Assembly (NCBI GenBank): GCA_024239075.1
Contig: JANBVI010000004.1
Coordinates: 237,719 to 301,718, forward strand
Length of the DNA: 64,000 bases
Direction: 5' to 3'
From: Fischerella sp. CENA71
GTDB lineage: Bacteria > Cyanobacteriota > Cyanobacteriia > Cyanobacteriales > Nostocaceae
Shown here: in pieces, positions 12,907-64,000 of the stretch
Layout of the letters: each line of letters starts with the position of its first letter
Numbering within the stretch: the stretch's first letter is position 1
Notes under the pieces: generated by a model
The model's input: only the letters and a program-made list of their open reading frames with translations
What the model was told of the DNA's origin: nothing
The model's database searches: none
Program-made: the position numbers and the translations under genes

Positions 12907-13743
12907 TTACATTCCTCCAGCGAGATTTTGATAAACCATCTTCACAGCCATTGATACCAACACCAAGCTAAAGATAATTCTTAATATGTGCGTTTTCGCA
13001 CCAACTAGAACTCTTGCCCCTAAAAATGCACCAGGCAATATTCCCAACATCACTGGCATAGATAACCCTGGATCGATGTAACCACGGGCGAGATAAACTC
13101 CTGCTGATGCTGCGGCGGTAACACCAATCATAAAATTGCTTGTGGTAGTCGAAACTTTGAAGGGAATACGCATAATTTGATCCATTGCCAGGACTTTAAA
13201 CGCTCCCGAACCGATTCCCAGTAACCCAGAAATCACACCAGCAAATAACATCACAACAAATCCAGCTGGCACAGCATGAACTTGATAAGACATCACACCT
13301 TCAGCTGTGGGATAAGTGCTGTTGAGTTGGAGATAATCAGCGAGGGGATCGGTTGTGTCTTTTTCTGGGTTTTCTAGCTTAGTTTGCCCTGAAAGATAAG
13401 CAGAGTAAAGTAGGACAATTGCGAGAACAATAGTCAATGCTTTGACAGAAACGAATGTCGCAATTAAAGCACCAGCGATCGCACCAATAGTTGTTGCAAC
13501 TTCTAAAAACATTCCCAAGCGTAGATTCGCAAAGCCTTTTTTAATATAAGTTGAGGCTGCACCAGCACTTGTAGCAATGACAGAAACGAGTGAAGCGCCT
13601 ACAGCATAGCGAATATCAACACCGAATACAGAAGTTAACAAGGGGACAATGACGACTCCTCCCCCTAACCCTGTCAATGCGCCGACAAAGCCAGCACTGA
13701 AAGATCCCAGCCAAACTAATAAAGAAAACTCCAGGATGTTCAA
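12907..13743 (-). CDS. TauE/SafE family anion exporter (copy 1)
   Basis: The 278-residue membrane protein has the twin-domain TauE/SafE layout with about eight hydrophobic segments; the repeated signature GFVGALTGLGGGVVIVPLL (residues 17-35) recurs as GVISGLLGIGSGAFKVL (about 168-184). Family members export sulfite, sulfoacetate or related organic sulfonates. Start is TTG at 13743: a GAGG motif lies eight bases upstream, while the ATG in that stretch is out of frame. Its DUF1634 partner follows downstream on the same strand, separated by a palindromic element. A second, more distant copy is at 19032. The substrate is inferred, not shown. Confidence 0.88.
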   Translation of the reverse strand: MNILEFSLLVWLGSFSAGFVGALTGLGGGVVIVPLLTSVFGVDIRYAVGASLVSVIATSAGAASTYIKKGFANLRLGMFLEVATTIGAIAGALIATFVSVKALTIVLAIVLLYSAYLSGQTKLENPEKDTTDPLADYLQLNSTYPTAEGVMSYQVHAVPAGFVVMLFAGVISGLLGIGSGAFKVLAMDQIMRIPFKVSTTTSNFMIGVTAAASAGVYLARGYIDPGLSMPVMLGILPGAFLGARVLVGAKTHILRIIFSLVLVSMAVKMVYQNLAGGM

Positions 13744-61368: not shown

Positions 61369-61587
61369 CGTAGGGATTAGGGATCGGGGATCAGGGATTC
61401 TGAATATTTGATCGAAAAAATATTTGGAATTTAAAGATGGAGTAACTTTAGTAACAAAGAGTCAAACAGCTTTATTTTTCTTTAATTTTAGCTAGTATCG
61501 TCAATTTACTGAATATTGCTAATATCAATCTGGAATCTTGTTATGTATATTTGTAGCTTTGTATAAACACTAACTAGACTTGGCATT

Positions 61588-61770
61588 ATGCATATTAGTC
61601 TTACAGACGATCCACTATTGCAAACATGGGAAGCGCAAAAACCCCCTCACCTCAGTCCCCAAGAGCATGGTAATTGTTCAGAAGAAACACTATTCAGGGC
61701 TGAATTAGAATCGCTCAGGCAGAATTTAGAACAAAATGCCAATACATTAGTAGTAGGAAAATTTCGATAA
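61588..61770 (+). CDS. Small hypothetical protein ahead of the TIR gene
   Basis: The 60-residue protein starts MHISLTDDPLLQTWEAQKPP and ends NANTLVVGKFR, with an acidic-helical middle (SEETLFRAELESLRQNLEQ). It ends with TAA directly followed by the ATG of the TIR gene (no gap), so translation is coupled and it is likely to be part of the same operon. I do not recognise a family; an antidote, sensor or lead peptide are possible roles. Confidence 0.55.
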   Translation: MHISLTDDPLLQTWEAQKPPHLSPQEHGNCSEETLFRAELESLRQNLEQNANTLVVGKFR

Positions 61771-62472
61771 ATGAATGAGCAATTTGACTTTGATGTTTTT
61801 CTTTGTCACAACAGCAAAGATAAGCCTCTGATTATAAAAATTGCAGATGGACTTGAGCAACTTGAGTTAAAACCTTGGATAGATAGAAGGAATATTGACC
61901 CTGGAGAAGAATTTCAAGCAGCAATAGAACAGGCAATTCCCCGAACAAAATCTGCTACAATCTTTTTCGGTTTACACGGGGTAGGAAAATGGCAGAAAGA
62001 GGAAATAGACGCTTTATACAGAGAAAAGGTCAATAGAAAAATTATACTTGTTCCTATTTTACTGCCGGGGGTAAACGAAATTCCCAGTGAGTTTGTATTC
62101 TTACAAGGACATAATTATCTAAAACTTGAAACTCAAGAAATTAATGAGCAGTTTTTAAATGATTTGGTGAGGGGTGTGACAAGACAGAATATAGAATTAC
62201 AAAATCCAACATCAGCAACTAAGTTACCTCCAGTGAATTCCAGTAGAGAACTTGTCCAGTTAATTAGGGATAAAATGAGCCTTGAAGACGTGAAGAACAT
62301 TTGGTTTAACACCTTTGATTCCTTAATGAAGGATCAAGTGAGTGAATTAACTCTTGGTAATTGTGCTACTGAGTTAGTAGTACGTGCAAAACAACGTAAT
62401 TTAACAAATCAACTTATAAATAATATTCGTAGCGAACGTCCTGATTTAGCAAATGATCTAAACCCTTATTAG
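61771..62472 (+). CDS. TIR-domain effector with C-terminal effector-associated domain
   Basis: The 233-residue protein has an N-terminal TIR domain (1-140): FDVFLCHNSKDKPLIIKIADGL at 7-28, KPWIDRRNIDPGEEFQAAIEQAI near 34-56, SATIFFGLHGVGKWQKEEIDALYRE near 61-85 with the probable catalytic Glu (77 or 78), then ILVPILLPGV. Bacterial TIRs of this type usually break down NAD. From about 160 to 233 there is a helical domain SSRELVQLIRDKMSLEDVKN and LVVRAKQRNLTNQLINNIRS then ERPDL, which has the pattern of an effector-associated (EAD) adaptor domain. Directly coupled to the small gene before it. Likely toxic effector of a conflict system. Confidence 0.85.
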   Translation: MNEQFDFDVFLCHNSKDKPLIIKIADGLEQLELKPWIDRRNIDPGEEFQAAIEQAIPRTKSATIFFGLHGVGKWQKEEIDALYREKVNRKIILVPILLPGVNEIPSEFVFLQGHNYLKLETQEINEQFLNDLVRGVTRQNIELQNPTSATKLPPVNSSRELVQLIRDKMSLEDVKNIWFNTFDSLMKDQVSELTLGNCATELVVRAKQRNLTNQLINNIRSERPDLANDLNPY

Positions 62473-62505
62473 GTTCACCACGGAAACCGCCGGAAGTGGT
62501 GAACC
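62472..62505 (+). promoter_or_regulatory. Hairpin over the start of the iSTAND-like gene
   Basis: GGTTCACCAC (62472-62481) pairs perfectly with GTGGTGAACC (62496-62505); the GTG at 62496 is in the right arm. A small CGG/CCG pair lies in the loop. It could hold back translation of the second gene relative to the TIR gene. Confidence 0.6.
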
Positions 62506-63326
62506 GTAAACCGGCAAAAAAATTTAAATTACCTCCGCATCAAGAGTTAGAACAAGGGTTAATGTATTTAAACCACACGACACAATATCATTCTTTTCAA
62601 TCTTTAACAAAAAAATCTCATAATGTCGTTGGTATTCGGATTAAAACATCAACTGCTCCTAATATTCCCCTAGTTTGGTTATTAAAATGTCTTTTAAAAA
62701 ATCCTGATACATCTTATTTTCACTTTGGTTTAAGAACTTTTGTTGGCGAAAACAATAATTTTGATAAACTATTAGATAGTATTTACAGAAGTATTGTCAA
62801 AAAAGAAAGTAATGGTAAAGATAAAACAAAGATTCTCCAGGAGATTTATCACGAAATTCAAGAATATGAGCGAAACATTGTATTCATTTTTTATGATGTA
62901 GACAAAAAGCCTAAAGAATTTTTAGATCAGTTAAAATCTTTTTGGCATGATTTAAGAGATAAAGTTAAAAGTGACTGCTATTTGTTGATGTTGTGGGTAG
63001 ACTATCAAGAAGATAGCAATGATTGGCGAGAAATTTATCATTTTCCACAACAAGTTGATGAATCCTGGAATTGTACTGATTTACTGGATTTGAGTATACA
63101 AAAAAATTTCAAAAAAAGAGAACTGGCAAGTTGGGTAAATTCACATTCTTGCCCTTTTAGTAAAATTGATGAAAAGTTAACAGTAAATCAGGAAGCAATT
63201 CAACACACAATTGAAAGCATTTGGAAAGGTAGTCAAACAGGAAAAGCAGAAGCACTTCTCAAAGAAATTTATACAAAATGTGGACTTACTTGGGAGGAAC
63301 ATAAATCTAAATGGCAGAACTTTTAA
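62496..63326 (+). CDS. Putative iSTAND (inactive STAND-type) protein of a conflict system
   Basis: The 276-residue protein starts at GTG 62496, or possibly at ATG 62562 which has AAGGG upstream. The region VGIRIKTSTAPNIPLVWLLK near residues 47-66 takes the place of a P-loop but lacks G-x-x-x-x-GK(S/T); IVFIFYDVDKKPKEF near 129-143 resembles a Walker B strand without the full acidic pair. This is the picture of the inactive STAND group that bridges EAD-tagged effectors and MoxR ATPases in ternary conflict systems. Overlaps the ATPase gene by 16 bases. The name is inference from order and motifs, not a firm homology. Confidence 0.6.
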   Translation: MVNRKPAKKFKLPPHQELEQGLMYLNHTTQYHSFQSLTKKSHNVVGIRIKTSTAPNIPLVWLLKCLLKNPDTSYFHFGLRTFVGENNNFDKLLDSIYRSIVKKESNGKDKTKILQEIYHEIQEYERNIVFIFYDVDKKPKEFLDQLKSFWHDLRDKVKSDCYLLMLWVDYQEDSNDWREIYHFPQQVDESWNCTDLLDLSIQKNFKKRELASWVNSHSCPFSKIDEKLTVNQEAIQHTIESIWKGSQTGKAEALLKEIYTKCGLTWEEHKSKWQNF

Positions 63327-63890
63327 CAAATCAAAAATTTCACATCCTTACATATACTGGAGATAAACAATATCAACCAAAGCCAAAGGAAATTGATGAA
63401 AAAACGAAAGAACCACTTTATTGTTATGTACCTAGCGCAGAACTAGTTAAGGCTGTTAATTTAGCAATTCAGTTAAATAGACCTCTGTTGCTAGAAGGAG
63501 AGCCGGGGTGTGGTAAAACACGATTAGCGCGTGCAGTGGCTTATGAATTTAGTCAAAAATATCAACAGAATGGGCAGAAATGGCCTTATGCAGATTGGTA
63601 TATTAAGTCTAGCGATCAAGCACGAGATGGTTTATATATTTACGATGCTATTTGGCGGTTGTATGATGTGCAAATTACTAGCCAACTGTCTACATCAGGT
63701 GTATTGGATGCTTCGGAATGCGAAAAAATTCGTACTCGGCTAAGTGATACTAAACATCATGCGTACATCACATGGGGAGCGATAGGTAAAGCATTTCAAA
63801 CATCTCAGAACAAGCAACGCATGATTGTGTTAATTGATGAGATAGATAAAGCAGATCCAGATTTACCGAATGATTTACTTTTAGAGGTTG
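63311..63890 (+). pseudogene. MoxR-type AAA+ ATPase, broken by an insertion sequence
   Basis: The frame from ATG 63311 begins MAELLTNQKFHILTYTGDKQ; Walker A is LLLEGEPGCGKTRLARAVAYEF near 61-82, Walker B MIVLIDEIDKADPDLPNDLLLE near 172-193. Right after LLLE the frame reads VV and stops at 63895. In MoxR proteins the chain continues for another 100-150 residues with sensor 1 and 2 and the lid, so these are lost here, or separated by the element. A new kind of sequence (the IS end) starts at about 63887. Hence the ATPase should be non-functional unless the insertion is excised. Confidence 0.85.
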
Positions 63891-64000
63891 TTTGAAAAGT
63901 CAGGCAGGGTGTAAAAAAGCTCTCTCAGTATAAGCTGTGAATGAATAGTAAACAGCACCGAGAGAGTGGCATGAGTAAAGCATACAAGAGCAATCTGACC
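63887..64000 (+). mobile_element. IS5-family insertion sequence, left end (partial)
   Basis: The change from ATPase coding to foreign sequence falls near 63887-63891 (GTTTGAAAAGTCAGGC). About 80 bases later a transposase starts. CTCTCTC near 63923 and GAGAGAG near 63960 could be part of a sub-terminal inverted repeat. The right end and target-site duplication lie beyond the window. Confidence 0.75.
63971..64000 (+). CDS. IS5-family transposase (first 10 codons)
   Basis: Reads MSKAYKSNLT to the window edge. MSKAY(x)SNLT is the usual start of IS5-type (IS1031-like) DDE transposases in cyanobacteria. Only this stub is present, so the family call rests on the N-terminal motif and on the IS context. 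Confidence 0.7.
   Translation, partial: MSKAYKSNLT

Follow-up and report, generated by a model that had tools for sequence, protein, structure and literature searches.

The 64,000 bases of the filamentous cyanobacterium Fischerella sp. CENA71 analysed here (the window; contig C4, positions 237719-301718) end in an operon for a TIR-domain effector, an inactive STAND (iSTAND) protein and a MoxR-type AAA+ ATPase. We think it likely that the window holds the first (5') half of a MoxR-vWA ternary conflict operon of the iSTAND type, which has been split by a recent insertion of an IS4/5-family insertion sequence (IS), and whose probable sensor is diversified by a diversity-generating retroelement (DGR). 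The other half lies on contig C74 of the same assembly, where the IS ends at the same three-base target duplication. The DGR and its target lie outside the window, and a first-pass annotation of the window therefore missed them. The observation made in that annotation is confirmed, and its interpretation as a whole is partly supported. In what follows, C4, C9, C14 and C74 are contigs of the strain's own genome (G000), and L049 and L079 are stretches of C74 and C9. The closest relatives compared are Fischerella sp. PCC 9431 (G004; locus L022) and F. muscicola PCC 73103 (G002).

Reconstruction of the interrupted operon

Four open reading frames (ORFs) overlap or abut from 61588 to near the contig end. 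The four-gene block reported in the first-pass annotation is real, since all of its ORFs lie where it had placed them and TIR, iSTAND and AAA domains are matched in Pfam. The features are as follows.

61588..61770, + strand: 60-aa ORF, C-terminal remnant of a conserved protein of ~165 aa, judged non-functional
61771..62211, + strand: TIR domain of the effector, residues 1-147 (TIR_2, 5e-18; AbTIR alignment)
62212..62469, + strand: C-terminal death-like, EAD7-like adaptor domain of the effector, residues 148-233 (EAD7, 0.087, under the cut-off; predicted model)
62212-62388, + strand: segment of the adaptor domain that is hyperdivergent between species, residues 148-206 (dS 0.67-0.78)
62496..63326, + strand: iSTAND protein, 276 aa (Pfam iSTAND, 3.7e-7, residues 23-166; alignment with eight relatives)
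63311..63883, + strand: MoxR-type AAA+ ATPase, first 191 codons, C-terminal part cut off (both Walker motifs present; the 345-aa orthologue in L022 is intact)
63881..63883, no strand: TTA, left copy of the target-site duplication (its right counterpart is L049:10629-10631, which is C74:184628-184630)
63884..64000, + strand: left 117 bases of an IS4/5-family (DUF4096 and DDE_Tnp_1) element (transposase start at 63971; the contig ends here)

The 233-aa effector matches TIR_2 at 66 bits against a cut-off of 28, and the 194-aa ATPase ORF matches AAA (1e-7). The 276-aa protein matches iSTAND (PF19995), as had been predicted, at 31.1 bits against a cut-off of 24 (26.1 bits in its orthologue). The ATPase has GEPGCGKT as Walker A and IVLIDEID as Walker B. 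Its frame is native for 191 codons (63311-63883), and three IS-encoded codons follow before a stop at 63895. The TTA ends at 63883 and the left end of the IS starts at 63884 as GAGGTTGTTTGAAAAGT, with the transposase ATG at 63971. Thus, the ATPase is cut after Walker B by an IS, as first described.

The window ends with its contig (C4, 301718 bases). On C74, the right end of the IS reads ACTTTTCAAACACCCTC, followed by TTA and then by the next MoxR codons. The two IS ends are inverted repeats that match at 16 of 17 bases, and TTA stands on both sides. A search for the MoxR C-terminus and a vWA gene beyond the IS, with a target duplication, had been set as a check beforehand, and C74 holds all three. 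From 178337 to 184633 it carries the MoxR C-terminus and the genes for the vWA (379 aa; L049:9032-10171), FGE (518 aa), Avd (115 aa) and reverse transcriptase (RT; 352 aa) proteins, and all of these downstream genes are open. Its DNA is 91-96% identical to the PCC 9431 locus in three alignments. As in PCC 9431, the two halves are flanked by a peptidase gene of the M24 type, presumably pepP, on one side and by the gene of a presumed UbiB-like kinase on the other. A 27-base motif, GGGATTAGGGATCGGGGATCAGGGATT, at 61373-61399 immediately precedes the peptidase gene (61368, minus strand), and it has four other copies in the genome.

Only the two ends of the inserted IS copy were assembled, and its family was read from a full-length, diverged and defective copy on C14 (DUF4096, 9.8e-20; DDE_Tnp_1, 1.6e-21). 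By these domains, the interrupting element is a member of the IS4/5 family. Ten other copies of the left end were compared, eight of them identical over 114-115 bases and two diverged (97 and 101 of 114 bases). The high identity of these ends suggests a recent spread of the IS family.

After about 120 bases of the right IS end, C74 continues into DNA of other mobile elements and then into a gene; the relative of this gene in PCC 9431 is 2.4 Mb away. Contig-internal IS copies also part into unrelated DNA, five left ends at ~116-119 bases and two right ends, together with C74, at 119-121 bases. Other contigs simply end near the same offsets (left 117-120, right 113-120); the left offsets were read by eye on a reference sequence that stops at 120 bases. 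Because the contig-internal copies part where other contigs end, we take the continuation of C74 past the IS as a probable assembly join. Joins at such constant offsets are probably misjoins at repeat boundaries. A chromosomal rearrangement between C4 and C74 was considered and not adopted, since the join offsets match the contig ends at the IS, as those of assembly joins would. The joins into unrelated DNA are found in L002, L004, L008, L068 and L069, and in L049, L071 and L072, at offsets of ~116-121, and one of them runs into what we take to be psbD coding sequence.

The retroelement and its lectin target

The template repeat of the DGR is located at C74:179765-179890 (L049:5766-5891), and the variable repeat at C74:181487-181612 (L049:7488-7613), which is the 3' end of the FGE gene. 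The two repeats differ at 19 positions, all of them at a template A (19 of 31 A and 0 of 95 other bases; Fisher test, 9e-15). In PCC 9431, mismatches are found at 15 of 35 A and at 0 of 93 other bases. There are four differences between the templates of the two strains, and at all four the variable repeat has the base of its own template. Between the strains, 23 of the 126 sites of the variable repeat are different, against 1322 identical sites of 1431 in the remainder of the FGE gene. Since the variable repeats follow their own templates and differ more than the rest of the gene, these patterns point to homing since the lineages parted. Judged by them, mutagenic homing of the DGR was active in the past.

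The DGR proteins are recognized by their profiles. In PCC 9431, Pfam gives RVT_1 (3e-22) and bAvd (2e-18), and the Avd protein of the CENA71 genome matches DivGenRetAVD of NCBIfam at 141 bits against a cut-off of 80. The RTs of the two strains are 97% identical. We suggest that the FGE/C-type-lectin protein diversified by the DGR is probably the sensor of the operon. Its N-terminal part, which is joined to vWA at L024, L132 and L145, fits the linker account in PMC8195603.

A related RT (1e-30) is present in 22 of 60 genomes, including that of CENA71. MoxR genes were found in 17 of the 24 RT-bearing stretches examined (out of 31 matches), and an RT in 4 of 11 iSTAND loci. These loci were labelled by single-sequence phmmer at 1e-4, and a missing iSTAND or vWA label there is weak evidence. 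In one DGR locus, of G008, a gene for a TCAD3-CHAT-TIR-EAD9 protein (L131:3736-5784, + strand) precedes those for MoxR, vWA and two FGE proteins, which is the same plan with another effector fusion.

Effector domains and the locus across Fischerella

The TIR domain of the effector aligns in sequence with the AbTIR chains 7uwg and 8g83 (5e-7 and 1e-6). Its Glu78 aligns with the Glu of the AbTIR WTNYE motif, presumably the catalytic residue, and is invariant in three orthologues. From this alignment, the domain is probably an NAD(+)-cleaving enzyme. PADLOC matches the effector only with TIR-bearing or candidate defence models, and gives no match for the iSTAND protein.

The effector had been annotated as a TIR plus an effector-associated domain (EAD). 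The TIR part stands, while the EAD fails by curated score (EAD7, E 0.087, 13.1 bits against 32 in Pfam), though the predicted fold looks death-like. The EAD7 matches of all three orthologues are under the cut-off, and one orthologue also matches EAD1 at 0.065. A search for the EAD7 family gave no match over the cut-off in any of five genomes of the genus, and weak matches in 7 of 14 control genomes. In the predicted model, the adaptor domain has pLDDT values of 75-92 across residues 161-230. The top VIA matches of the model are CARD and death domains, in a list that re-examines Foldseek's own candidates; Foldseek itself returned nothing significant for the effector model. A sequence search of PDB chains with the adaptor profile gave six matches, none of them meaningful (best E 0.17). 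Taken from the model, the fold of the adaptor domain looks similar to death-fold (CARD-like) structures. The TIR half of the model is poor (about 30), and for this reason the TIR identity rests on sequence only. The iSTAND model was too poor to use (mean pLDDT 37.6). In MyD88, SARM1 and bacterial CARD-type adaptors, too, a TIR or other effector is coupled to an assembly domain that is a death fold or helical. The likeness is one of parts only, and we make no claim of common descent.

An alignment of nine iSTANDs, read by eye, indicates that the P-loop residues of STAND proteins are lost, with no GxxxxGK[ST] and no Lys-Ser/Thr at the P-loop position. More distant relatives have an N-terminal segment of 65-75 residues, which is EAD9-like at sub-threshold scores only. 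This segment is absent from the CENA71 protein, in which the domain starts at residue 23. With no EAD at the iSTAND N-terminus, the usual pairing of an EAD-tagged effector and an EAD-tagged adaptor is not seen. Thus, of the proposal that an EAD-tagged effector is licensed by an iSTAND with a MoxR-vWA pair, the TIR effector, iSTAND, MoxR and vWA are present and the EAD-to-EAD pairing is not seen. No second copy of the adaptor domain was found by a profile search of eight genomes, which returned three orthologues and two matches at chance level (E 0.6-0.7). A diverged partner of this domain may exist.

An iSTAND match (1e-3) is found in 8 of 60 genomes, the CENA71 genome included, and the only near-identical ones are those of PCC 9431 (93%) and PCC 73103 (91%), both Fischerella. 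The order in PCC 9431 is TIR-EAD, iSTAND, MoxR (345 aa), vWA (384 aa), an RRXRR/IscB-like ORF, an FGE-sulfatase-domain protein (531 aa), Avd and RT. All seven core ORFs are open there, with the IscB-like ORF and small repeat insertions present. MoxR adjoins a CoxE-type vWA in both strains, as an intact pair in PCC 9431 and with the MoxR split by the IS in CENA71. The IscB-like ORF (L022:8535-9272, minus strand; 7e-23) lies between the vWA gene and the DGR target, and is absent from CENA71. A check for the same gene order in other Nostocales had been suggested; the order is found in PCC 9431, and in PCC 73103 only up to a contig edge inside MoxR. The template repeat of PCC 73103, on another contig, has been entered by sequence with a group II intron maturase/HNH ORF (L202:2522-3454, minus strand), and orthologues of the vWA, target and RT genes were not found in this draft. 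In the draft of G001, the iSTAND and the orthologous TIR were not found. This genome keeps the vWA gene and an open MoxR gene that is truncated at its 5' end; the contig edge consists of 128 bases of unrelated sequence, and MoxR sets in from ~codon 14-15. Its FGE gene shifts frame about where the variable repeat begins, and it lacks the template and the 3' part of the RT, the points on either side of the gap being ~1.2 kb from each other in L022. In G003 the site is empty (L200, G003:C1:1102192-1102925), and about one base separates the two flanks of the ~9-kb operon. Thus, the five genomes of the genus comprise one intact operon, three with different lesions and one empty site; G001 and G002 are draft contigs, and their missing parts could partly be assembly gaps. 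The TIR protein of PCC 9431 had 17 matches in a plasmid collection, all below 60% identity, which gives no evidence of a plasmid-borne copy.

The operon has evolved unevenly. Synonymous (dS) and nonsynonymous (dN) divergence was estimated by the Nei-Gojobori method on single gene pairs, with a codon bootstrap in one comparison only. Between CENA71 and PCC 9431, the flanking genes have a dS of 0.23 and a dN/dS of 0.08-0.09. For the core genes dS is 0.06 (iSTAND), 0.05-0.08 (MoxR) and 0.09 (vWA), with dN/dS of 0.3-0.6; dS is 0.14 for the RT and 0.18 for the FGE target. The iSTAND gene has a dN/dS of 0.49-0.85. Residues 148-206 of the effector have a dS of 0.68 and a dN of 0.60, against a dS of 0.08 for TIR residues 28-147. 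Compared with PCC 73103, the same segment has a dS of 0.67 and a dN of 0.48, the TIR residues have a dN of 0.14 and a dS of 0.11, and the iSTAND gene has a dS of 0.04. Read most simply, these alleles, of which there are only three, mean that the species exchanged the core operon after their separation and that divergent alleles took the place of the adaptor domain. Selection may also act on the effector. A donor of the adaptor domain was not found by the profile search of eight genomes.

The leading 60-aa ORF, which had been counted as a part of the system, is a truncated remnant. Its residues 8-56 match the C-terminal part of a protein of ~165 aa, and we reject it as a new component. A full-length paralogue is encoded on C9 (L079:1509-2006, minus strand), and the protein is matched in 14 of 60 genomes, CENA71 among them. 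The full-length protein has no Pfam match at 0.1, and no PADLOC or NCBIfam match at 0.01. In 13 of the 20 loci examined (out of 23 matches), it is followed downstream by a TIR ORF that begins no more than ~130 bases away. Two of these 13 are the operon described here and its PCC 73103 orthologue, and eight of the 13 also have a GUN4 match. The ~165-aa protein and the TIR protein possibly form an unnamed two-gene cassette, and the TIR gene of the operon may have been captured from it. In Nostocales, the ~165-aa protein (L079 and L083-L099) often stands directly upstream of TIR or TIR-GUN4 proteins. The PCC 9431 orthologue of the remnant is split by an insertion of ~340 bases. A repeat of ~170 bases inserted in the PCC 9431 remnant (L022, about 13446-13615) has many copies in G001 and G003 and resembles a miniature inverted-repeat transposable element.

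Proposed working, known systems and other readings

Ternary iSTAND systems, effectors of the TIR/EAD kind and ternary systems linked to DGRs in multicellular cyanobacteria have already been published (PMC7159879, PMC8195603 and PMC10907252); PMC12691664 and PMC7517822 treat cyanobacterial DGR loci. Kaur et al. 2020 (PMC7159879) and their 2021 follow-up (PMC8195603) describe iSTAND systems with MoxR, CoxE-type vWA and TIR effectors. In these papers the FGS domain is the most common effector of iSTAND systems (about 22%), and separate vWA and linker-effector genes are found in a minority of them. The operon of CENA71 has the same iSTAND, MoxR, CoxE-type vWA and TIR effector, but its iSTAND has no N-terminal EAD, and the EAD of its effector scores weakly in sequence searches, with no second copy detected. 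Kaur et al. give EAD coupling, with a second cognate EAD on a core component, as characteristic of EADs and not of every system. Their DGRs go with VMAP systems, whereas the DGR here sits with an iSTAND system; no statement of a link between DGRs and iSTANDs was found in the passages of these papers that were covered.

Dore et al. 2024 (PMC10907252) and the N. punctiforme study (PMC12691664) describe clade-5E DGRs with MoxR, vWA, a C-type lectin (CLec)/FGE target, Avd and RT in one locus, propose an antigen sensor and mention TIR effectors. Compared with these loci, the CENA71 operon adds the iSTAND as a third component and the TIR-death-like effector. Its lesion is in the MoxR ATPase, whereas the transposon damage reported in Thiohalocapsa is to DGR parts (PMC10907252). 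The comparison of alleles over five genomes of one genus is our own. No paper on operon decay across Fischerella or on adaptor-domain swapping was found, with little aimed searching and few subscription papers covered. The relation to MADS is distant only. MadB is the best NCBIfam match of the PCC 9431 MoxR, at 84 bits, far under the equivalog cut-offs of 475/600 bits, and the CENA71 vWA matches MadC weakly (20 bits), behind SAV_2336_NTERM (37 bits). A literature search on MADS/MadB with MoxR gave nothing relevant.

The full operon has the order TIR plus death-like adaptor (the effector), iSTAND (adaptor or sensor), MoxR, vWA (CoxE), linker plus FGE/C-type lectin (the DGR target and probable antigen sensor), Avd, RT and template repeat. 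In the working that we propose, the DGR would rewrite the lectin surface at adenine-derived codons. The sensor would bind an invader, and the signal would be relayed by ATP hydrolysis of the vWA/MoxR pair and by the iSTAND protein. The iSTAND would gather TIR proteins through their death-like domains, and the TIR enzymes would act on NAD+, so that the infected cell is stopped or killed. In CENA71, the cut after Walker B would interrupt this chain between sensor and effector; that the operon is switched off with an intact effector is a reasonable inference. In the model of Kaur et al. (PMC7159879), the third component senses and MoxR-vWA sets the threshold. In that of Dore et al. (PMC10907252), the DGR-diversified CLec target senses and the signal passes via MoxR to the effector. 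The anatomy found here fits the latter better, because effector and DGR target are separate proteins, the former encoded at the start of the operon and the latter near its end.

Three other readings were considered. The operon could be a module for signalling or stress regulation, in which the DGR would adjust how a regulatory sensor binds its ligand and the TIR would produce a second messenger rather than kill. Vallota-Eastman 2020 take cyanobacterial DGR targets as signal transduction proteins, the MoxR, vWA and DGR target genes of N. punctiforme are co-expressed through the diel cycle (PMC12691664), and we infer the toxicity of the effector. However, a TIR joined to a death-like adaptor, recurrent loss in the genus, a high dN/dS of the iSTAND relative to the flanks and a low dS that suggests interspecies exchange are all expected of a conflict system, and we regard this module as unlikely. 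It is doubtful, more so than the regulatory module, that the insertion left two working halves, with TIR-iSTAND and vWA-sensor-DGR active apart and the latter perhaps served by another MoxR. All downstream genes on C74 are open, and G001 too keeps a vWA gene and an open 5'-truncated MoxR gene with no detected iSTAND or orthologous TIR; but the RT and target of G001 are themselves broken, as expected of decay rather than of new use. That the split is an assembly artefact, with MoxR intact in the organism and the contig ends made by misplaced IS reads, is very improbable in spite of the suspicious joins at nearly constant offsets inside the IS, as the halves were recovered separately, each with the correct IS end, the same TTA duplication and reciprocal MoxR breakpoints, and a DNA search found no uninterrupted MoxR copy in the genome.

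For the conflict operon, there is a further and speculative idea, to which we give a low probability. The death-like domain would be a polymorphic tag for specificity that passes between species as a cassette, whereas the remainder of the operon is homogenised, and it would work without the usual EAD partner on the adaptor. If so, the operon would join hypermutation of a DGR sensor with allele swapping of a death-fold adaptor. Its purpose could be, for example, escape from phage death-fold decoys, or kin identity like that of fungal incompatibility loci. The cost of such an operon would explain why three of the four occupied loci are independently broken in one genus.

One operon that is intact, one site that is empty and three lesions of different kinds form a natural series of a DGR-diversified TIR system within one genus. 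With this series, it becomes directly testable in close relatives whether such DGR targets sense antigens for a suicide pathway. It also marks the adaptor domain of the effector as a second place of rapid change, beside the hypermutable lectin sensor.

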